Under the pieces are notes generated by a model. It saw nothing but the letters and a program-made list of their open reading frames with translations, did not search any database and was not told the origin of the DNA. DNA of 64,000 nt from assembly GCF_014280435.1 (NCBI RefSeq), contig NZ_CP060388.1, positions 3,814,001 through 3,878,000 on the forward strand. The letters run 5' to 3'. The DNA is from Sphingobium sp. KCTC 72723. GTDB taxonomy: Bacteria; Pseudomonadota; Alphaproteobacteria; Sphingomonadales; Sphingomonadaceae. Position 1 is the stretch's first letter. Each line of letters opens with the position of its first letter. Position numbers and translations under genes: made by a program. Shown piece by piece: positions 9,695-46,970 of this stretch.

Positions 9695-9781
9695 GCCCAG
9701 ATGGCGGAATTGGTAGACGCACCAGCTTCAGGTGCTGGCGATCGCAAGGTCGTGGAGGTTCGAGTCCTCTTCTGGGCACCA
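9695..9781 (+). tRNA. tRNA-Leu (anticodon CAG)
   Basis: Acceptor strands GCCCAGA (9695-9701) and TCTGGGC (9771-9777) pair perfectly, followed by A and an encoded CCA ending at 9781. The anticodon loop TTCAGGT gives CAG, flanked by ACCAGC/GCTGGC stems. The long variable arm expected for class II leucine tRNA is present and the T-loop reads TTCGAGTCC. An integrase gene begins 178 nt downstream, and the 3' end of this tRNA is the likely attachment site. Confidence 0.95.
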
Positions 9782-9958
9782 ATACTGGCTCTGGCAGCGT
9801 CCAGATAAGTCCAGTAAGCGGCTGGTTTCACAGCATTTCTTGACCGAAGATCGCCAGACACCGTCCGGCGAAATCCGGCTAAGGGCAACAGCAGCGACCA
9901 CAAGATGTTGCTCTTTTTGTTGCCCTCGGATCGACCCGGCCTTGCTGGGAAAACGACC

Positions 9959-11188
9959 ATGCTGACCTACATCCAGATCAATGCCGCCAAGCCGAGAGAG
10001 AAGGCTTGGACCCTGAGCGATTCTCAGAGCCTCTATCTTGTCATCCAGCCGAACGGTTCGAAGCTATGGCGCTTCAACTACCGTTTTCTGGACAAGCAGA
10101 AGAAGCTTCATCTCGGGGGGTGGCCAACCATAAGCCTCGCGGAGGCGCGTGTCCGGCGCGACGAAGCCAAGAAGAAGATTGCCGAGGGGATCGATCCGGC
10201 GCTGGAGAAAAAGCGCGCGAGGATCGCCGCCAAATATGCCGCGGCCAATACTTTCGAGGCGGTGGCGGAGGAATGGCTCGTCAAATGCGAGCGCGACGGC
10301 CTCGCGCCCGTGACTATCGACAAGATTCGCTGGTTGCTTGCCAAGGCCTATCCATTGATCGGCACCATCCCGATCGCGCAGATCACGCCGCATGAGGCGC
10401 TCGCCGTCCTTCGCAAGGTCGAGGCGACCGGGGCCTATGAGAGCGCGCGGCGCATGCGTAGTGTGCTCAGCCGGGTGTTCCGTTACGGCGTTGCGACCGT
10501 GCGGTGTGACAAGGACGTCGCAGCAGACCTGCGCGGTGCGATCGCCGCGCCTAAGGTGAAGCATTTCGCTGCAATCACCAAGCCGTCGGAAGTCGGCCAG
10601 CTGTTGCGTGCCATCGACGGATATCGCGGGCACAAGGTCACGATCATGGCGATGCGCCTGTCCCCGCACGTGCTGCTCCGCCCGGGAGAACTGAGACAGG
10701 CAGAGTGGACCGACATCGATTTCGACGAGGCGATCTGGTTCATTCCGGCGGAGCGGATGAAAATGCGGCGGCCGCACCGCGTGCCGTTGTCGCGGCAGGT
10801 GATCGCGATGCTGAAAGAACTCCACGAGCACACGCACTGGTGGAAATATCTGTTCCCGTGCCTCGGCAAGCCGCGCAAGGCCATGTCAGAGAATGCCGTC
10901 AACCAGGGCCTTCGCAAGCTCGGCTATACGACCGACCAGATGACCGCGCACGGCTTCCGGGCAATGGCCGCCACGTTGCTCAACGAAATGGGGCAGTGGA
11001 ATCCTGATGCGATCGAGCGCCAACTGGCGCACGTCGATACCAATCAGGTCCGGCGCGCTTATGCGCGTGGCGAATATTGGGATGAGCGCGTGGAAATGAT
11101 GCAGCACTGGTCGGACTATCTGGATCGGCTGCGGGATGGTGGAACGGTGCTGCGCCCAGACTTCAAAGCCGCACGCGCAATAGGTTGA
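9959..11188 (+). CDS. Tyrosine-type site-specific integrase (P4-like)
   Basis: 409 aa. The N-terminal DUF4102-type arm-binding domain is clear (LSDSQSLYLVIQPNGSKLWR, then LHLGGWPTISLAEARVRRDE), followed by a SAM-like core-binding domain and the catalytic domain. The catalytic set reads Arg in HVLLRPGELRQAEW, His-x-x-Arg in TAHGFRAMAATLL, His in QLAHVDTN and Tyr in RRAYARGEYWDERVEMM. Start ATG 9959 fits the family opening (MLTYIQINAAKPREKAW). It follows tRNA-Leu directly, as expected for an integrated island. The gene looks intact, although the cargo that follows is mostly degraded. Confidence 0.88.
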   Translation: MLTYIQINAAKPREKAWTLSDSQSLYLVIQPNGSKLWRFNYRFLDKQKKLHLGGWPTISLAEARVRRDEAKKKIAEGIDPALEKKRARIAAKYAAANTFEAVAEEWLVKCERDGLAPVTIDKIRWLLAKAYPLIGTIPIAQITPHEALAVLRKVEATGAYESARRMRSVLSRVFRYGVATVRCDKDVAADLRGAIAAPKVKHFAAITKPSEVGQLLRAIDGYRGHKVTIMAMRLSPHVLLRPGELRQAEWTDIDFDEAIWFIPAERMKMRRPHRVPLSRQVIAMLKELHEHTHWWKYLFPCLGKPRKAMSENAVNQGLRKLGYTTDQMTAHGFRAMAATLLNEMGQWNPDAIERQLAHVDTNQVRRAYARGEYWDERVEMMQHWSDYLDRLRDGGTVLRPDFKAARAIG

Positions 11189-19853: not shown

Positions 19854-19867
19854 CTCTTCTGGCACCA
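19854..19867. other. Candidate degenerate attachment site (attR-like)
   Basis: CTCTTCTGGCACCA here matches the tRNA-Leu 3' end CTCTTCTGGGCACCA (9767-9781) apart from one missing G. A P4-like integrase sits beside that tRNA, so this could mark the far end of a ~10-kb island (9.77-19.87 kb). The match is short and imperfect, so chance similarity is possible. Confidence 0.3.
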
Positions 19868-19895
19868 TTTACCCCTTCGGTGGGGTATCCCAAAA

Positions 19896-19920
19896 TCATC
19901 GACAAAATGACGGAAATCCG
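19896..19920 (-). other. Remnant of CRISPR leader-like sequence (copy A)
   Basis: TCATC..CAAAATGACG..AAT.C on the plus strand here is also found at 25536-25558, directly downstream of cas2 in the other CRISPR locus. In this copy it directly follows the cas1 fragment, which implies that the rest of cas1 and all of cas2 were deleted. No repeats remain on its far side. Confidence 0.5.
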
Positions 19921-20004
19921 CCATTCTGTCCTTGATTTTGCCCTGTGGCGTCGAAGCGGGTTTCGGGCCATTCGGCCAATGATCGGCAAAACCCATTGCC
20001 GCTG

Positions 20005-20089
20005 GACCGCGCCGCAGGACGATCAGGAAACCGCGCAAGGCCGAAAGACGGCGACCGTCGTGGATTGCGATATCCACGATCCGGCCCAC
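20005..20089 (-). pseudogene. cas1 N-terminal remnant (CRISPR copy A)
   Basis: The minus strand reads GRIVDIAIHDGRRLSALRGF then LIV, close to the start of the intact Cas1 at 25.9-26.8 kb (DRIVDIATDGRHLSALRGFL). Similarity ends after about 28 codons, where a deletion joins it to leader-like sequence. The first codon is now GTG. It starts 24 nt after the cas9 stop, nearly the same spacing as between the cas9 fossil and cas1 in copy B, which shows the original order cas9-cas1. Confidence 0.8.
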
Positions 20090-20113
20090 CTGCGTTTCCC
20101 GCCCTGGTTCGGT

Positions 20114-23100
20114 TCAGGTCCGTTTGCGGGTCTTGCGGCGCGCGGTGCGCGCGGGGAAGCCGGGGTCAAGGACGCGGCCGATTTCGTCGATCCGCACCTG
20201 ACGCGCCTTGGCTTTTTTCAGCCCGCCACAGGTCGGTGCAAAATATTTGAACGGATCTTCATCTCTGGGCGTGGCATCGCGCCGTTTAAGGTCGCCGGAC
20301 TCCTGCGGCTCAACCAGCGTGATTTGCCCGTTCTGGCCAAATTTCACGACGCGCATCAATTTACGCGCTTCCCCGTCGCGCTCGATCGCCAGCAGGTCAT
20401 TCTGGTGCAGACTCAGTACCTTGCGTGCAACAGGATTGGCGGCGCGGACGGCCGATGCCCAGCCGGGCTGATGCGCGTCGAAAGTGGAAACAACCTCCGC
20501 CTGCCAACTGCCGTCCTTCATTTCCCACACATCATAACGATAGTTGGAATCGCCCTTATAACCCTTGTAGACGCGGCCTTCCTTGTCGCGGATCGGGATG
20601 ACGGTCAGCGGCTCGACCATGCGCAGGCGGCGGATGCCGGGATAGGCGTGCCATTCCCGGTCGCCAAACTCGGCCACCGCCTTTTCCAACGCCTTGCCCT
20701 CCAGTCCGTCGAGATGCCGGTAGAGCGCAGCTTTCAGGTCCGCGTCGCGCACCTTGTCGATGTCGGCCAGCTTTTTGATGTTGGTGATCGGCACCCGGCG
20801 CACGACGATGCTGTTGCCCTTGGCGTCGCTTTCCCCGGTCAGGCCATAGGCGGTGTCATTGTGCAACCGCCCGGCAGTTGCGTCCTTGCCCTTGGGCAGC
20901 CCCGCCTTGGACGCGGTGCCATGGTCGGTACGGTGGCTGACGATGATGGCGTTGACCACGCGGCGCAGATCGTCGCGGAAACTCTCCCAAGGCGGCGGAA
21001 TGATGATCCGCTCGCGTCCCTCTGCGCCTTCTTCGCCCGATGCTTTGGCGATCTGCATCAACAGCTTGCGATCAACCAGCGCGACCACGGCGGCGTCGAT
21101 CGCATGATGGCGATGGTCGAGGCGGTTCTTGGGCTGGTCCGCCCCGCCACCGAAATTATGGTCGGGCAACAGGTCGTTGAGACCCCATTTGCGCCGCACC
21201 ATTTCGGTCAGCCGCCCCGGCGACACCCACACATGACCGCTGCCTTCGCCCTTGTCGGGATAAAGGATGGACAGATATTCGCGGGCCAGACGGGAAAGAT
21301 ATTGGGTATCGACCAGATGGCGGGCGAGGAAACCCTCTTCACTCTTGAACGTCTCCATCGCGTCCGGCTCGAACCGCCAGCGCTTGTTGCGCGGCAATTG
21401 CGCGGCGCGGGCGGCGATGGCGTCCCATTGGCCGGTGTGACCCCAGGCTTCATAAGGGGACTGTTTTCGCTTCACCCGATTGGCTTCGCGGGTGCAGACA
21501 ATCTTGTTGCCGTTGCTGTCGTCCAGCGTCGCGGTGAAGGGCAGGATATGGTCGATCTCGACCGCAGCGGAAAACAGCATGTCGATGGAAATCTGTTGCC
21601 CGCTATAGATGCAGCGCCGGTCGAGAACATTGGCCGGGTTCAGTTCTTCCCACAATTTCAGCAGCGCGCGGTTGGCCCCTGAATCGCGCTGGCCGATCGC
21701 CAGCAGCTTTTCGGATCGCTTTTCGGCGGCGATGCGAATGTCATTATTCTCCTTGTTGCGCCGCTTCTTGTCATCATCGGTCAGCTTCAGTTCGCGCGCC
21801 AGTTCGATCGCGATTTCAGCCGGCGGGCCATAGGCGCGGATCAGCGCATTGACGACGCGGCGCAACTGGTTGAGGCCGATATGCACGGTGGGGTTGGTCA
21901 GGCGACCGACCCGCATTTCCTCCGCATCGGATGGTTCTCCCGTCCCCGGCATGATGTGCCGTTCCAGCGCGACGCCATAATAGGGCAGCGCGTCATGGAC
22001 CACGCCATCGCGAAAATCGCTATGATGGCCAAGCCCGGCCAACTCCACCGCCTCGCTATAGACGATGACTCGCCCGTCCTTCTCGCCATCGCGCAGCGCG
22101 TCGATCAGCCTGCGCGTCGCGCTGTCGCCAAAGCGGCCATAGCCTGCGGGCAAATGGGCGTTCGCCACTGCCTTTGCCTGTTCCGGCGTCAGATCATAGG
22201 TCGCGCCGACCCAGGCGCGGAAATCCGCATCCTCAGTCTCGCTCTCGACCGCTTCGAGCCGTTCGATGACAGCCCATTGTTCGTCGGGTGAGAGGTGGAC
22301 CCAGCGGTTGCCGAACCGGGTTTTGCCGCCCATCAGCGCGGCGACTTCATCGCCTTTCAATTCGGTCCGATTCTCGCTCTCCTTGTTGAACCGCGCGTCC
22401 GGGTCCAGCTTCAGCGTCTTGCGCAGGCTCTCGAAACGGACCTTTGCCTTGTCCTTGAGTTTCAGCAGCAGCAGGTCGCGCTGCTCATGCGTCAGCCGCT
22501 GCGCCTTCTCGCCCGCGCGCACCAGCATCAGCGCATTGATTTCCTCCAGCAGGCGGCGGCGCTGGAACAGGGGGTGCGCCTTGGGCAGGCGGGCGTCGGT
22601 GGAAATGAGGGTGCATTTGCCGATCTGTGGCGCGCGCAACGGGCGCTGGTGAAAGACGATCTCGAACAGGCGTTGGTAGACGTCGGGCGTCAGCATATCG
22701 AAATGATGCGGTGCCTGCGCTTCCCAGATCGCCTCGAACTCCGCCTCCAACTGCGCCCGGCCGGGATAGAAATCATAGCCGTCGCCCTTGGCCCCTTCGC
22801 CGCTTTCGGGGCGCAGGCGGGTGCGGACGCTGGGGATGGCGTTGGGATCGGTGGCTTCCAGGCGGCGCATGTGGAGGAACTCGCCGAAGGTCCGCGCGCC
22901 CTTCTCTTTCATCTTCTCTTCGAGCCGACCGACCCCGACGGCAATCTTGCCCGCATCGTCGTCGGCCTTGCGGTCCGCCTTGCGATTGCTCTTGAACCCG
23001 CGCCGCTGATTGATGTGGAACAGCGCGCGACCCAGATGATGCAGTGGCAGCGCCTCATCCAGCGCACGAGCGCGCAATGCGTAGGGATCGAGTTGCTCCA

Positions 23101-23404
23101 GCGCCTTGCGTTCGGCCGCATCGGCCGGGGACAGTCCATCAGCGGTCAGATATTTCAGGAGGGCGCGCTGGCGCTGCTGAAACCGGTCCCGCCGCCGCCG
23201 CATCGCCCGCGCATCGCGTCGATCCACGGCGAGGGACGCGCCGGATTTGGGATCGCGACCGTCACTGAAGATGCGGGAACCGGCGGCAAGGATGGCGACG
23301 GGTTCGTAACGGTCGCCATCCTTATGCAACGCGATGGCCGCCCACCCCAGCGAATTGGCACCCAGGTCAGCGCCCAGGCGCCAGATTTTACGATCGTTGG
23401 CCAT
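20114..23404 (-). CDS. cas9: CRISPR-associated endonuclease Cas9, type II-C
   Basis: 1096 aa, in the II-C size range and with no gaps. RuvC-I is IWRLGADLGANSLGW (Asp13), followed by an Arg-rich bridge helix (about 60-82), recognition lobe, RuvC-II IAIELARELK (Glu534), an HNH domain with CIYSGQQISI and VEIDHILPF (Asp618, His619) plus NGNKIVCTRE, and RuvC-III RLDHRHHAIDAA (His767, Asp770). The C-terminal domain ends in a basic tail. All catalytic residues are present, so it should cut both strands of guide-matched DNA. ATG 23404 chosen; a TTG at 23434 is in frame but less likely. A tracrRNA diverges 133 nt upstream; downstream cas1 is only a fragment, so adaptation must depend on the second locus. 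Confidence 0.95.
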   Translation of the reverse strand: MANDRKIWRLGADLGANSLGWAAIALHKDGDRYEPVAILAAGSRIFSDGRDPKSGASLAVDRRDARAMRRRRDRFQQRQRALLKYLTADGLSPADAAERKALEQLDPYALRARALDEALPLHHLGRALFHINQRRGFKSNRKADRKADDDAGKIAVGVGRLEEKMKEKGARTFGEFLHMRRLEATDPNAIPSVRTRLRPESGEGAKGDGYDFYPGRAQLEAEFEAIWEAQAPHHFDMLTPDVYQRLFEIVFHQRPLRAPQIGKCTLISTDARLPKAHPLFQRRRLLEEINALMLVRAGEKAQRLTHEQRDLLLLKLKDKAKVRFESLRKTLKLDPDARFNKESENRTELKGDEVAALMGGKTRFGNRWVHLSPDEQWAVIERLEAVESETEDADFRAWVGATYDLTPEQAKAVANAHLPAGYGRFGDSATRRLIDALRDGEKDGRVIVYSEAVELAGLGHHSDFRDGVVHDALPYYGVALERHIMPGTGEPSDAEEMRVGRLTNPTVHIGLNQLRRVVNALIRAYGPPAEIAIELARELKLTDDDKKRRNKENNDIRIAAEKRSEKLLAIGQRDSGANRALLKLWEELNPANVLDRRCIYSGQQISIDMLFSAAVEIDHILPFTATLDDSNGNKIVCTREANRVKRKQSPYEAWGHTGQWDAIAARAAQLPRNKRWRFEPDAMETFKSEEGFLARHLVDTQYLSRLAREYLSILYPDKGEGSGHVWVSPGRLTEMVRRKWGLNDLLPDHNFGGGADQPKNRLDHRHHAIDAAVVALVDRKLLMQIAKASGEEGAEGRERIIIPPPWESFRDDLRRVVNAIIVSHRTDHGTASKAGLPKGKDATAGRLHNDTAYGLTGESDAKGNSIVVRRVPITNIKKLADIDKVRDADLKAALYRHLDGLEGKALEKAVAEFGDREWHAYPGIRRLRMVEPLTVIPIRDKEGRVYKGYKGDSNYRYDVWEMKDGSWQAEVVSTFDAHQPGWASAVRAANPVARKVLSLHQNDLLAIERDGEARKLMRVVKFGQNGQITLVEPQESGDLKRRDATPRDEDPFKYFAPTCGGLKKAKARQVRIDEIGRVLDPGFPARTARRKTRKRT

Positions 23405-23502
23405 GCTGCCTACCCCACCCCTTTGACGAGCCAAATGGGGCAGAGAGAGAGCATAAGGTCAAGCGCAATCCAGTATCGAAATGAACCAGTCAGCCGACCC
23501 GC

Positions 23503-23530
23503 TTGACGACTATTTTTCCATTGCTATACT
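23503..23530 (+). promoter_or_regulatory. Predicted sigma-70 promoter of tracrRNA
   Basis: TTGACG (-35, 23503-23508) and TATACT (-10, 23525-23530) are separated by 16 nt. Initiation about 7 nt downstream would place the first base right before the anti-repeat at 23538. It reads away from cas9. Confidence 0.7.
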
Positions 23531-23536
23531 CGCCAC

Positions 23537-23613
23537 TCAGAGATCGCGGTCTGGCGGCTAACAAGCAGCTATTTTGCACCAGATAAGGGCGACGCTCCGG
23601 CGTCGCCTTTTTT
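23537..23613 (+). ncRNA. tracrRNA for the type II-C system
   Basis: The anti-repeat (23538-23562) is complementary to the first 24 nt of the CRISPR repeat at 24.99-25.49 kb: I count 21 Watson-Crick pairs, 3 G:U pairs, one single-base bulge and no mismatch. The 3' tail is only about 51 nt and ends in a GC-rich hairpin with a T-run. RNase III processing of this duplex would yield the guide bound by Cas9. A sigma-70 promoter ends 7 nt upstream. A second, broken copy lies at 27641-27676. Confidence 0.88.
23588..23613 (+). terminator. Intrinsic terminator of tracrRNA
   Basis: GGCGACGC (23588-23595) pairs with GCGTCGCC around a TCCG tetraloop, followed by six T residues. In II-C tracrRNAs this hairpin is part of the mature RNA. 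Confidence 0.88.
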
Positions 23614-23687
23614 GTGCCTGTTGGCTCTGCCGCGCCAGCCCCACTGATGGCCATCGCGCGGGGCATAAGGCACGAAACAGGCGTCTG

Positions 23688-24515
23688 ATGGCGAGCGAAC
23701 TTTTTCTCATGGCGGCATCAGGGCCGCGCCGCCGGGGCTATGATCCCATGGCGCTGCACCTGTCTCAGGGTGTCGGCCTGTGCCATATCGAGGGATGGCA
23801 ATATCATGGCTTCATAGTGGCGGATGATCCGGCGGATTACGGCATCGCGCCCCTGCTGGCACAGCGCATCGCGACATGGTCAGCCCATTATCGCCAATTT
23901 GAGGAAGGGCTATATGCCGACTGGACGCCCCAGCATTGCCGTGGCTTCGACATCCAACGGCATAATCGCGAAGGGCTGGCCATAGCGCACGCGATCGTCG
24001 CGACTATTTCCGGTAGCCGACAACTCTGCTTTCGGCCCGTCAAGCGCCGGGGAGCCTATCACCACTCCTACCTGGCCGAACAATCGAGCCATCTGTCGAA
24101 TGCCCGCCTGCCACCCGATCAGGGCGGGCCGCCGCGCCCGGCTTATTATGATGATAGCCGCGATCCGGCAAAATGGGTGCGCGTGATGGGCGATTATAGC
24201 AGCACCGGCATCTGGCACTGGCAGGGCTATGAAATGGACCCGGACGATCTGCCCGTCCCTGCCGACATCAAGGCCCGCCTGGCCAGTTGGGCAGCCCGTT
24301 ATCACGGCGCCCACGATAGTTGGCGCGATGGCGACGCGGATAATTTTGCAGCCTTGCAAGAAGACGACCGCTATCTGCGCGCCTATAGCGACGAAGGCTT
24401 GAGCCTTGCCCGCGCGATCAAGGCTTGCCTGCCCGACTGGACAGTCGTTTATTTTGACGAGGATTTGTCGGCCCGTCATGCCATCCGCGCCCGTTTCATG
24501 TTCGAAATTATGTGA
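23688..24515 (+). CDS. Unrecognised protein with two tandem related halves, inside the CRISPR region
   Basis: 275 aa, soluble, no signal or membrane segment. Two halves align with each other: CHIEGWQYHGFIVADDPADY...APLLAQRIATWSAHY...REGLAIAHAIVATI and GIWHWQGYEMDPDDLPVPAD...IKARLASWAARYH...DEGLSLARAIKACLPDWTVVYFDE. The shared pattern is a W-x-G-Y/H strand, an LA.WAA.Y helix and an EGL.LA.AI helix. Single-domain proteins with the EGL.LARA...LPDWTVVYFDE ending are, from memory, scattered in proteobacteria without known function. ATG 23688 chosen as the first start after the tracrRNA terminator. Codon use looks like the neighbours. A role in CRISPR biology is unproven; it may simply have inserted between the two loci. 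Confidence 0.65.
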   Translation: MASELFLMAASGPRRRGYDPMALHLSQGVGLCHIEGWQYHGFIVADDPADYGIAPLLAQRIATWSAHYRQFEEGLYADWTPQHCRGFDIQRHNREGLAIAHAIVATISGSRQLCFRPVKRRGAYHHSYLAEQSSHLSNARLPPDQGGPPRPAYYDDSRDPAKWVRVMGDYSSTGIWHWQGYEMDPDDLPVPADIKARLASWAARYHGAHDSWRDGDADNFAALQEDDRYLRAYSDEGLSLARAIKACLPDWTVVYFDEDLSARHAIRARFMFEIM

Positions 24516-24990
24516 AACAGGCCCAGGCCACCCCTCCGCCATCTTGAACGACATATGGCAATGATCGGCAGAATATCCTTCGATTGCCTTGCCGGATCCT
24601 GTCATAAACGCACTCGATGATGGGCGCATCGCCTAAACGCGCACCATCGGTTCAACTCTATCCACTCTTTTGCCGGCGGGAATGACCGGGTCAGCCGGTT
24701 GACGAGCCATGCGATCGCGCATCGGGCCGAGGACGGCGCATGGCCTGGGGCGAGGCTTCGCGCACTATAAACCAGCGGAAGGCGGATGTTGCATAGCCTG
24801 ACGGGTGAGGGGCTGCTGGCGTTGGGCAGGGCGAAGCGGCCGGCCTGCGTTTCCCCGCGCGCAGGCTGGAGACGCTGCTTCCCCGGCTTTACTCGGACAT
24901 GGGGTGGGCGGAGTTGAGTTGAGCAGACGACAGGATGAGTGGATTGAAATGAGCGCCAGATGAGCATGGCGCGATCAATGTCAAACATGA
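24516..24990. other. 475 nt without a supported gene before the CRISPR array
   Basis: No frame here carries convincing family features. Plus-strand fragments such as SLTGEGLLALGRAKR (near 24.80 kb) and RFPARRLETLLPRLYSDMGW (near 24.85 kb, another frame) look like pieces of one decayed coding sequence with frameshifts and stops. I could not identify it. Confidence 0.45.
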
Positions 24991-25487
24991 GCAATCGCTG
25001 GACCGTGATCTCTGAACGGCTATGATCAGCACGATCACCGTGCGGGGGACGCAGCAGTTGCCGCTGGACCGTGATCTCTGAACGGCTATGATGAGGCCCC
25101 GCCCAACTGTGCGCTTGCCCGCGTTGCCGCTGGACCGTGATCTCTGAACGGCTATGATAGCTTGGTGTACGCGCCCTCCACCAGCGAGTTGCCGCTGGAC
25201 CGTGATCTCTGAACGGCTATGATCATCGCAAACATCTGCGCGACCGGCGTGGAGTTGCCGCTGGACCGTGATCTCTGAACGGCTATGATACGCGCGTCAG
25301 ATAACGACTGCCGCCTGCTGTTGCCGCTGGACCGTGATCTCTGAACGGCTATGATTCAGCGCGCGACGATCATGGTTGATTATATGTTGCCGCTGGACCG
25401 TGATCTCTGAACGGCTATGATTCTGTCAGGCGACGGGTCGAACAAGCCCTTGTTGCCGCTGGACCGTGATCTCTGAACGGCTATGAT
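24991..25487 (+). CRISPR. CRISPR array, 8 repeats of 36 nt and 7 spacers of 29-30 nt
   Basis: Repeats start at 24991, 25057, 25123, 25188, 25254, 25320, 25386 and 25452. The unit begins GTTGCCGCTGGACC and ends CTGAACGGCTATGAT. Repeats 2-8 are identical; repeat 1 differs at positions 2-5 only (GCAATCGCTGG). Spacers are 30 nt except the third (29 nt), and I see no duplicated spacer. Orientation is set by tracrRNA pairing: crRNA is read on the plus strand, towards cas2, as in other II-C loci. The repeat ends in TATGAT, resembling the -10 box that II-C repeats such as that of Neisseria use to start a transcript in each repeat. That repeat 1 keeps its 3' half but not its 5' half fits this. Confidence 0.97.
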
Positions 25488-25559
25488 GGATGGGTTGTTA
25501 TCTCGTTGAACCACAACGACATATCGGCCCATCCATCATCACCAAAATGACGCGAATCG
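25488..25559 (-). promoter_or_regulatory. cas2-array junction, candidate leader
   Basis: 72 nt between the last repeat and the cas2 stop. Part of it (25536-25558) is conserved beside the cas1 remnant of the other locus (19896-19920), which supports a functional leader or adaptation signal. It also holds an inverted pair (GGATGGG near the repeat, CCCATCC at 25529-25535). The identical repeats lie on this side and the degenerate repeat on the far side, consistent with new spacers entering here. Confidence 0.5.
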
Positions 25560-25898
25560 TTAGAACAGGGCGAGTTGATCGGGGTTTTTGCGTTGCCGTT
25601 TTCGGCGCTGGCCTGAATATCGCACGATATTTTCATATTGCCGGTCCGTGAAGCTGAGGATGTGGACGTCGCCCCGGTCGGGCAGATTGGCTTCGACCCG
25701 GCGCATATAGGTTTCGAACTGTTCCTTGCCGTTGCAGAAACGAGCATAGACGGAAAACTGGCTTTTTTCAAATCCCTCGTCGAGCAGGAATTCGCGGAAT
25801 TTGGTGGCGGCACGGGCCTGTTCCTTGCTGGTGACGGGCAGGTCGAACATCACGAAAATCCACATCAGTTGATATCCGCTCAATTGGGTGGCGCTCAT
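25560..25898 (-). CDS. cas2: CRISPR-associated protein Cas2
   Basis: 112 aa. Ferredoxin-like start MWIFVMFDLPVTSKEQARAA, then FREFLLDEGFEKSQFSVYAR and VHILSFTDRQYENIV, the normal II-C Cas2 layout; it ends NPDQLALF. Cas2 bridges two Cas1 dimers in the spacer-integration complex. The first ATG (25898) overlaps the cas1 stop by 4 nt (ATGA); an internal Met 11 codons later is a second possible start. It is the last gene before the array and intact. Confidence 0.94.
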   Translation of the reverse strand: MSATQLSGYQLMWIFVMFDLPVTSKEQARAATKFREFLLDEGFEKSQFSVYARFCNGKEQFETYMRRVEANLPDRGDVHILSFTDRQYENIVRYSGQRRKRQRKNPDQLALF

Positions 25899-26818
25899 GC
25901 CAGCAGCGCGTCCAGCCCGGCCAGTTCGAGAGCAGAGGGCGGCGTGGGCATCACCAGATCGGCCGACTGACCGCTCTGAAAAGCACGGGCCAGCGACTGG
26001 GCTGCGCGGTTGGCAGCGCCTGCGACCGTCGTCGTGCCATCGGCACCGGGCAGGTCGAGCGCGATCAGCCCGGCAAAGGCGCGCTTGGCTTCGGGCGTGA
26101 CGGTTTGCGCGCCACGCGCGACCAGGCGCAGCGTCAACGCATCGACCAGCGGGCGAAAGGGTTCGATCAGGTCGTCGGCCAGCGCCATGGCATTGGTCCG
26201 GTTGGCATGATGCACGCCGATCGACGGGTGCAGGCCGGACGCCACGACTGCGCGCGCGCAAAGCGATCGCAACACGGTATAGCCATAGTTGAGCAGGGCG
26301 TTGACGCCGTCGGCATCGCGATCGCGGCGGAAATCCTGGCCCATCAGCAACGGCCAGTAGCGCCGGGCCGCCTGTGCCTCGACATTGTCGGGATCACCCG
26401 ACCCCACGCGCCGCGCTAGAAGGTCAAACGCGCTGGCGGACACGCCATTGGCTTCCAGCACGGCGGCCTGCCAGCGGATCTTGGCGATGACGATGCGGCG
26501 CCACAATTGCTTGGACAGCGGCTTGCCGGCCTCCCACTGCGCGCGCATCCGGGCGTTCTGGGCATGATGGCCGTCCAGCGGCAGGCAGATGGCGACCGGG
26601 GCGTGGTTGCTGCCGCACAACAGCATCACCGCGCCCCGCCGCGCCAGCGCGACGATGAGGTTGGTGGACCAGGTAACGCCATGGGCGTGGACGATCACGG
26701 CGCTGACATCGTCCAGCGGGACGCGGCCCACTTCTTCGCGATCTTGCGAGACGATGAGGAAGCCGCGCAGGGCGGAAAGATGACGGCCATCGGTAGCGAT
26801 ATCGACGATCCGGTCCAT
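25895..26818 (-). CDS. cas1: CRISPR-associated endonuclease Cas1
   Basis: 307 aa integrase of the adaptation complex. Beta-rich N-terminal domain (MDRIVDIATDGRHLSALRGF), then helical catalytic domain with Glu about 147 (DNVEAQAARRYWP), His about 203 (HPSIGVHHANR) and acidic residues 215-219 (LADDLIEPFRP), the expected metal set. It starts 22 nt after the cas9 fossil stop and overlaps cas2. Intact, in contrast to the ~28-codon remnant beside the complete cas9, so this is the only usable Cas1 seen in the window. Confidence 0.95.
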   Translation of the reverse strand: MDRIVDIATDGRHLSALRGFLIVSQDREEVGRVPLDDVSAVIVHAHGVTWSTNLIVALARRGAVMLLCGSNHAPVAICLPLDGHHAQNARMRAQWEAGKPLSKQLWRRIVIAKIRWQAAVLEANGVSASAFDLLARRVGSGDPDNVEAQAARRYWPLLMGQDFRRDRDADGVNALLNYGYTVLRSLCARAVVASGLHPSIGVHHANRTNAMALADDLIEPFRPLVDALTLRLVARGAQTVTPEAKRAFAGLIALDLPGADGTTTVAGAANRAAQSLARAFQSGQSADLVMPTPPSALELAGLDALLA

Positions 26819-26840
26819 TTTTCCGCGCGCTTCGCTTGGC

Positions 26841-27578
26841 TCAGGTCCGCTTGAGTGGCTTGCACCGGGCGGTGCGGGCGGTGCGGGCGGTGTGGGCGGG
26901 GAAGCCGGGGGCGAGGACGCGGCCGCGTTCGTCGATGCGCACCTGCCGCGCCCTCCAGGCCTTGAGCATGTTGGCGGTCGGGTGAGGGTGTGGGCCGGTG
27001 CGGATGCGCCAAAGGCGCATTGCAAGACAGGCACTCAGTATCTTTCGCGCGGTCGGGCCGGCGATGCGAACGGCCGACTGCCATTGGGGATGATGGGCAT
27101 CATATATTGACACAATTTCGCTTACCCACTTCTCGTCCGGCAATTCCCACATATCGTAACGATAGTTGGAATCGCCCCAACAGCCCCTGAAGACAGGTCC
27201 ATTTCGGTCGCGTATCGGAATGAAGGTCAGTGGTTCGAGCAAGCGGACATGGCGGATATGGGGATAGGGCCGCGATACCAGATCGAAACATTGCGGGATT
27301 GCCCGTTCAGACGCCTCGCTGCCCAATCCTTCGCAATGGCGACCGAACCGCACATCCTCCGTATCGGATGCTTCTACTGGGCTTTCGCAATGGGGTAGCG
27401 CCTCGTCCAGGCACGGGCGCGCAAGGCGTAGGGATTATAACCATCGCTGAAGATGCGGGACACCGGCAGCCAAAATGCCGTTCAGCGCGCTGCTTTCGCG
27501 ACATCTACACAATTCGACCGTAACCCAGCACAGCGAATAAGCGCTGAAATCTGCGCCCTATCGCCAGATTCTAGTCAT
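26841..27578 (-). pseudogene. Internally deleted cas9 fossil (CRISPR copy B)
   Basis: From ATG 27578 the minus strand reads MTRIWR, a TAG stop, then GADFSAYSLCWVT, aligning with the RuvC-I start of the intact Cas9 (RKIWRLGADLGANSLGW). Then come short pieces matching SRIFSDG, PYALRARA and DEALPH, joined by deletions and frameshifts, and a direct jump to the C-terminal domain (VRLLEPLTFIPIRDRNG, GDSNYRYDMWELPDE) and tail (RQVRIDERGRVLAPGFPAH). HNH, RuvC-II and RuvC-III are gone. The C-terminal part is clearly diverged from the intact protein, so this is an old paralogue, not a recent duplicate. A dispersed repeat has inserted at 26973-27032. Confidence 0.9.
26973..27032. repeat. Dispersed repeat unit inserted in the cas9 fossil
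   Basis: GGCGGTCGGGTG, GGGCCGGTGCGG and an ATGCGCC...GGCGCAT hairpin followed by AGACAGGC occur here in the same order as in one half of the large palindrome at 46808-46970. The unit lies where the fossil protein reads through RIRTGPHPHPTANM, residues with no counterpart in the intact Cas9. Confidence 0.75.
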
Positions 27579-27640
27579 CTGGGTCCAGTCCGGTTCAGGC
27601 CTGCATTGAGGACATCAAACGGTCCTTGAACCAGCCATGT

Positions 27641-27676
27641 CAGATAAGGGAGATGCTCCGGCGTCGCCATTTTTGT
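27641..27676 (+). pseudogene. tracrRNA 3'-end remnant (CRISPR copy B)
   Basis: CAGATAAGGG..ATGCTCCGGCGTCGCC then A and five T match the 3' end of the intact tracrRNA (23580-23613), with one hairpin arm mutated. The promoter and anti-repeat are missing: the distance from the cas9 start codon to the hairpin is roughly 110 nt shorter than in copy A, consistent with a deletion. It diverges from the cas9 fossil exactly as tracrRNA does in copy A. Confidence 0.75.
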
Positions 27677-27715
27677 GTCCGGTCGAATATGCCCTATGCT
27701 GTTCGACCGCCGCGT

Positions 27716-46795: not shown

Positions 46796-46807
46796 AGAGT
46801 TTGTTTT

Positions 46808-46970
46808 GAAATGCGCCTTTGGCGCATCCGCACCGGCCTTCAAACGAGGCACGTGACTCGTTTGAACCCCACCCGACCGCCCATTCAGGATACACATAGT
46901 GGGCGGTCGGGTGGGGGTGAGGGCCGGTGCGGTAACCGAAATGCGCTCTTTCGCGCATTTCGAGACAGGC
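46808..46970. repeat. Large nested palindrome (~163 nt), dispersed element
   Basis: Outer arms: GAAATGCGCC...CCGCACCGGCC on the left and GGCCGGTGCGG...GCGCATTTC on the right. Middle arms: CCCCACCCGACCGCCCA (46867-46883) and TGGGCGGTCGGGTGGGG (46900-46916). A separate hairpin CAAACGAG...CTCGTTTG (46841-46864) is nested in the left half. One half of the element recurs in the cas9 fossil (26973-27032). It has no gene and looks like a miniature, non-autonomous element. Confidence 0.8.

Follow-up and report, generated by a model that had tools for sequence, protein, structure and literature searches.

The window analyzed here, a stretch of 64,000 nt (G000:C1:3814001-3878000) from a genome of 4.43 Mb in two contigs, contains two type II-C CRISPR loci, arranged head-to-tail between a side with a tRNA-Leu, an integrase and IS21-like genes (9.7-18.8 kb) and a block of conserved genes (Table 1). 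Copy A consists of a tracrRNA, cas9, 72 nt of cas1 and a relic of an array repeat, while copy B consists of the terminator stub of a tracrRNA, a cas9 fossil, cas1, cas2, a leader and an array. The gene order is the same in both copies, as had been stated in an earlier note on this DNA; the spacing, which the note also gave as equal, is obscured by the deletions. All cas genes of both copies are encoded on the minus strand in the order of II-C systems, and tracrRNA-A and the crRNAs on the plus strand. This structure of the two loci can be regarded as nearly certain. The product of the gene between the copies gave no Pfam, NCBIfam or PADLOC match, and ten relatives of this gene were found with identities of 39-98%.

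Table 1. Features of the two CRISPR copies and their surroundings (positions within the window)
Feature	Position	Strand	Remarks
tRNA-Leu and adjoining phage-type integrase	9695-11188		with IS21-like genes, to 18.8 kb
Array-repeat relic of copy A	19996-20011	-	16 nt, repeat positions 20-35, just behind the cas1 remnant
cas1-A 5' remnant	20018-20089	-	first 72 nt, 24 codons
cas9-A	20114-23404	-	open, 1096 aa, II-C type
tracrRNA-A	23503-23616	+	promoter motif, anti-repeat, terminator hairpin
tracrRNA-A promoter motif	23503-23530	+	TTGACG-16-TATACT, motif scan
tracrRNA-A anti-repeat	~23532-23558	+	sequence match to repeat
tracrRNA-A terminator hairpin	~23587-23613	+	read from the sequence; outside the 7 sites listed by the scan
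Conserved gene between the copies	23688-24515	+	275 aa; membership in the CRISPR system unsupported
Array B	24996-25487	+	8 repeats (36 nt each, the one farthest from the leader truncated) and 7 spacers
Leader B	25488-25562	-	inverted repeat 25483-25508/25514-25539
cas2-B	25563-25898	-	intact
cas1-B	25898-26818	-	intact, type II Cas1
cas9-B fossil	26844-27584	-	collinear pieces, big internal deletions, REP-like insert
REP-like palindromic insert in the fossil	~26967-27029
tracrRNA-B stub	27641-27677	+	terminator alone, 92% to tracrRNA-A
Conserved block right of the CRISPR region	from ~27.71 kb		HHH-like protein, purD, xseA

Copy A was said in the earlier note to keep cas9 and the tracrRNA, and both are indeed complete in their parts. 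Cas9-A matches the NCBIfam family Cas9 TIGR01865 (E 2.3e-175) as well as HNH_4 and RuvC_III, and the residues which we take to be catalytic (RuvC-I D, RuvC-II E, HNH D-H...N and RuvC-III H..D) align with those of solved Cas9 chains. The closest proteins are P0012 (91%), P0013 (87%) and P0014 (86%). With respect to what copy A has lost, the same note was correct for most of cas1 and all of cas2. The loss of the array, however, is incomplete, as a 16-nt relic of a repeat (CGCGGTCCAGCGGCAA) had been overlooked. This relic matches repeat positions 20-35 exactly, lies a few bases past cas1 codon 24 and is found by a repeat-profile search (nhmmer E 4.7e-5), and the only other exact matches of its 14-nt core in the window are those in array B. 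The simplest account of copy A is a single deletion, which would have reached from cas1 codon 24 into a repeat of its own array and thereby removed the rest of cas1, cas2, the leader and the array. At the edge of the relic there is a G where array B has an A, which is consistent with array A having had G at this place; its use as independent proof was rejected, as the base lies at the deletion junction and may derive from cas1. A candidate leader remnant at 19895-19918, which falls within a hairpin, matches leader B at 20 of 24 positions and exceeds 2000 mononucleotide shuffles. Only one of five leaders of relatives scored there above its own 300 shuffles, four did not, and a profile of the cas2 end and leader built from 15 loci gave no match at this place.

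Copy B keeps cas1, cas2 and the array, and its cas9 has been gutted, both in line with the earlier description. The fossil spans 0.74 kb (cas9-A: 3.3 kb), with pieces collinear to cas9-A at 26883-26952, 27033-27268, 27338-27375, 27394-27435, 27440-27470 and ~27524-27573, and an alignment suggested at the time as a check shows that the remnants of cas9 and cas1 do align to the intact genes. The 29-nt core of the REP-like insert occurs at one other place in the genome with three mismatches, and a longer relative of the insert is located in the window at 46802-46932. That tracrRNA-B lacks promoter and anti-repeat holds as well: a global alignment shows that copy B is shorter by roughly 120 nt between the cas9 start and the terminator, compared with the anti-repeat and promoter of copy A, and a repeat profile gave no match for an anti-repeat in this interval. 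The terminator stem, as read from the sequence, is also shortened. The operon of cas1-B and cas2-B has lost its upstream end, and no minus-strand promoter was listed by the motif scan upstream of cas1-B. One derived base is common to all eight array repeats, which would be expected if the array has been maintained, and the 3′ end of each of them carries a promoter-like motif (TGGACC-16-TATGAT) by consensus match alone. The scan found 13 promoter-like sites, eight of them in the array repeats, where 2.4 would be expected. A promoter within each repeat is known from Neisseria. The repeat motifs thus suggest that array B may need neither a leader promoter nor the old operon. The inverted repeat of leader B takes in the first bases of the first repeat and may act as a terminator that separates the array from cas2; the leaders of relatives differ in sequence but contain, by eye, a similar palindrome.

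Searches of the genome itself yielded cas9-A and the fossil but no further cas9, one match each for cas1 and cas2, and for the tracrRNA the full copy in A and the stub in B. A search for the 20-nt core of the repeat that allowed three mismatches gave eight places in array B, tracrRNA-A and one chance-like site. As no other cas9, cas1, cas2, tracrRNA or matching repeat is found in the genome, array B is the only source of guides seen for Cas9-A. The assignment to type II is based on a Cas9 with RuvC and HNH domains in copy A and on the anti-repeat of the predicted tracrRNA-A, which is complementary to repeat B with one wobble in the core. The cas4 family, the presence of which would indicate II-B, had no match in the genome and matches in nine of 14 control genomes. 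The csn2 family, indicative of II-A, also gave no match in the genome, but likewise none in the 14 control genomes; an NCBIfam scan of four proteins found no csn2 among them. Cas1-B is a type II Cas1, as is characteristic of II-C, scoring 232.4 bits against TIGR03639 cas1_NMENI (cutoff 120). The one-locus layout, which is the typical arrangement of II-C and not its definition, is absent, with cas9 and tracrRNA lying in copy A and cas1, cas2 and array in copy B.

Two adjacent, incomplete loci could in principle be the product of an assembly in which two contigs or strains were wrongly joined, a concern raised in the earlier note. Similarity to relatives begins at 27.71-27.72 kb, directly behind the tracrRNA-B stub, in all 12 relatives fetched for comparison, and the sequence which adjoins the conserved block in G085 is found in the present genome (G000) at a distance of 48 kb and in inverse orientation. 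A rearrangement breakpoint therefore coincides with the right edge of the CRISPR region, which fits a wrong join. Yet the genome consists of two contigs with a completeness of 100 and a contamination of 0.32, and the deletions and REP-like insert of the fossil resemble ordinary decay, so that an assembly error is hardly credible. From the tRNA-Leu and integrase leftwards, the orientation is opposite to that in relatives, and one of the breakpoints (27713) lies at this edge. In a search for island boundaries, the end of the tRNA-Leu did not recur as a long copy within the window.

Within the genus, cas9 was found in 20 of 94 genomes and falls into two lineages, with identities to cas9-A of about 71-82% (lineage 1) and about 47-53% (lineage 2). 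Full-length cas9-A branches close to the base of lineage 1, and the fossil also groups with this lineage (support 84/84; best tblastn scores). Over the columns covered by the fossil, its nearest loci are L032, L036, L035 and L040 (68-69% DNA identity; 67% to cas9-A), whereas cas9-A is nearest to L033, L037 and L029 (77-78%). Same order, same orientation and adjacency are what would be expected from a tandem duplication of one locus whose copies diverged later. However, besides the different nearest loci, a tree in which cas9-A is sister to the fossil is rejected at a cost of 16.4 log-likelihood units (AU p 0.0258; 466 columns, with the fossil on a long branch and most forks weakly supported). 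A recent duplication, already doubted in the earlier note, is rejected by this test, and an older one is very improbable. Copies A and B belong to one lineage but are of separate descent.

The surviving genes are under constraint, each with a median omega (NG86) slightly above that among relatives: 0.172 (10 pairs) versus 0.130 (45 pairs) for cas9-A, 0.098 (9 pairs) versus 0.071 (36 pairs) for cas1-B and 0.052 (10 pairs) versus 0.031 (45 pairs) for cas2-B. The age of the cas9 fossil was roughly estimated, from excess change at codon positions 1 and 2, as ~0.236 neutral changes per site. Neutral copies of cas9-A simulated to this age contained on average 16.5 stops and none of 300 was free of stops; at a quarter of this age two of 300 were. 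For the shorter cas1 and cas2 the same simulation is a weak test, as 12 and 27 of 300 neutral copies, respectively, remained free of stops. The absence of stops in cas9-A indicates that selection kept this gene after cas9-B had died, and for cas9-A the simulation is decisive under its assumptions. The earlier proposal that selection kept one copy of each part is supported by these values. Alternatively, both copies might be dead or dying, with two separate histories of decay having left complementary remains by chance. Decayed loci are common in the genus: a single, broken locus is present in at least four of the 19 other cas9-bearing genomes (G041, G046, G078 and G052). The raised omega values would fit as well. 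That an old fossil stands beside a cas9-A with neither stop nor frameshift, and that the survivors form exactly one full set of parts, makes such a coincidence unlikely in our view.

Whether the split parts fit each other can be judged from the pairing of tracrRNA-A with repeat B. The predicted duplex has -52.5 kcal/mol. Native pairs of 21 related loci were predicted at -35.7 to -56.4 kcal/mol, and all but one of them are weaker than this duplex (for L026 and L045 the repeat, 32 and 40 nt in length, was taken from two copies). An even more stable duplex (-59.1) is predicted for tracrRNA-A and the commonest lineage-1 repeat. Repeat B has an A opposite a G of tracrRNA-A, giving a G-U wobble in the RNA core. 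In all 15 lineage-1-type loci (13 of lineage 1 plus L026 and L047; the anti-repeat of L040 was taken from another contig, L048) the 15-nt anti-repeat core equals the locus's own repeat, L026 and L047 having a matched change in both. Five of six lineage-2 and outgroup loci differ from their own pair somewhere within the same 15 nt, so imperfect cores exist elsewhere too. From these predictions, pairing of tracrRNA-A with repeat B appears about as good as that of native pairs.

A Cas9 with its tracrRNA is used for gene regulation in Francisella. Cas9-A and tracrRNA-A could accordingly be retained for an array-independent use, with copy B being a passive relic of adaptation. The loss of Cas9-A's own array and the missing upstream end of the cas1-B/cas2-B operon would agree with such a use, as would the result of the spacer searches: array B had no match in phages, and of eight plasmid records at E <= 1 none was convincing as a target, the two best adjoining cas9 genes and being taken as other CRISPR arrays and the remaining ones being short or weak. 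Exact 23-25-nt cores of four of the seven spacers each gave zero matches in viral contigs, and against the fetched loci of relatives the spacers showed, the array itself aside, matches of chance length alone. Intact cas1-B and cas2-B with low omega, eight uniform repeats and the favorable predicted pairing speak against a mere relic, and we consider array-free use improbable.

The two half-decayed loci thus probably represent one hybrid, presumably working system, rebuilt by complementary decay as the earlier note had proposed. In a Sphingobium-like chromosome, two type II-C loci that share a lineage but differ in descent would have become head-to-tail neighbors. Copy B would then have lost its effector module (cas9 and tracrRNA) by stepwise decay, and the complementary pattern may need just two histories, this decay and the one deletion in copy A. 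Cas9-A and tracrRNA-A would load crRNAs from array B, transcribed from the promoters inside the repeats, and Cas1-B and Cas2-B could extend the array. The deletion, the crRNA-B/tracrRNA-A pairing and the repeat promoters are what we infer from the sequence, and the joint function of A and B is a prediction. No description of two II-C loci with complementary decay was found among the matches listed from an open-access library, judged by their titles and the beginnings of their abstracts.

Elsewhere in the genus, a second locus of the cas9-A lineage was seen in none of the 19 other cas9-bearing genomes. G041 has, on a different contig, a further but distant cas9 (28% identical), and in G063 cas9 is split over two contigs. 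Around 23 fetched loci (4-20 kb each) no extra cas fragments were found besides one split cas2. Of 397 genomes drawn from across the family, 33 gave a match and none other had two adjacent copies among the best two candidates per genome, a depth at which a second copy could be missed. The lesions of the broken loci comprise a stop in cas9 (G041), a deletion from cas9 into cas1 (G046) and a frameshift in cas1 (G052). The cas2 of G078 is split by an insertion of ~1.3 kb (L029 12745-14067). On the plasmid NZ_CP016453.1 of Sphingobium sp. RAC03 (629429-631735; L041, the same locus as in G046) the deletion fuses cas9 at codon ~755 with cas1 at codon ~223. This shortened gene carries a Cas9 annotation, and another short array is located ~1.2 kb past the first.

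A chimeric II-C locus is present in G077 (L047 8240-8380 and 8649-14169). It combines a lineage-2 cas9 (support 100/100) with cas1, cas2 and array of lineage 1, which shows that modules of these systems are exchanged within the genus. Its cas1 stands next to cas1-B in the protein tree (90/90), while the DNA tree gives no decision, and its tracrRNA is 90% like tracrRNA-A, but flipped, with a degenerate repeat beside it. Lineage-1 cas1, cas2 and array and the similar tracrRNA are shared with the window; the single compact locus, the lineage-2 cas9 and the flipped tracrRNA are not. It is conceivable, although we propose it only tentatively, that the window represents such an exchange half-way, in which adjacent related loci each drop the module that the other keeps and a hybrid of mixed descent results. 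Clearance of the debris from a split hybrid would yield a compact chimera like the one in G077. If this is true, chimeric CRISPR systems could arise through complementary decay as well as through direct recombination. The shuffling of modules is a central theme in the evolution of CRISPR, but how modules swap partners is seldom seen under way, and the locus would offer a natural, testable intermediate. It also bears on the questions whether Cas9 and tracrRNA can use the array of another locus whose repeat matches imperfectly, and whether a single immune system spread over two decayed loci can be maintained by selection.

Among known systems, the ordinary single-locus II-C systems of the genus (e.g., L030, L032-L037 and L039) are among the most similar, sharing the protein families and the order of tracrRNA, cas9, cas1, cas2, leader and 36-nt repeats with ~30-nt spacers. 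Each of them is one complete locus whose anti-repeat core equals its own repeat, whereas the window has a split set and a wobble in the core. CRISPR1 and CRISPR2 of Enterococcus faecalis are of subtype II-A. There, according to PMC5491264, the orphan array CRISPR2 is served by the Cas9 of CRISPR1, the arrays having identical repeats at different chromosomal sites; the use of another locus's array by a Cas9 is the likeness, which for the window is proposed from sequence. In the window, both loci are incomplete and adjacent, and the repeat match is imperfect. The II-C locus of Flavobacterium columnare is complete. Its Cas1 is used in trans by a VI-B array, as given in PMC8092290, so that, as proposed here, an array relies on the adaptation genes of a different locus, although two different CRISPR types are involved in that species. 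In a review of module shuffling (PMC6452270), effector and adaptation modules of different descent combine by in situ exchange and module recombination, while the window points to adjacency followed by complementary decay.
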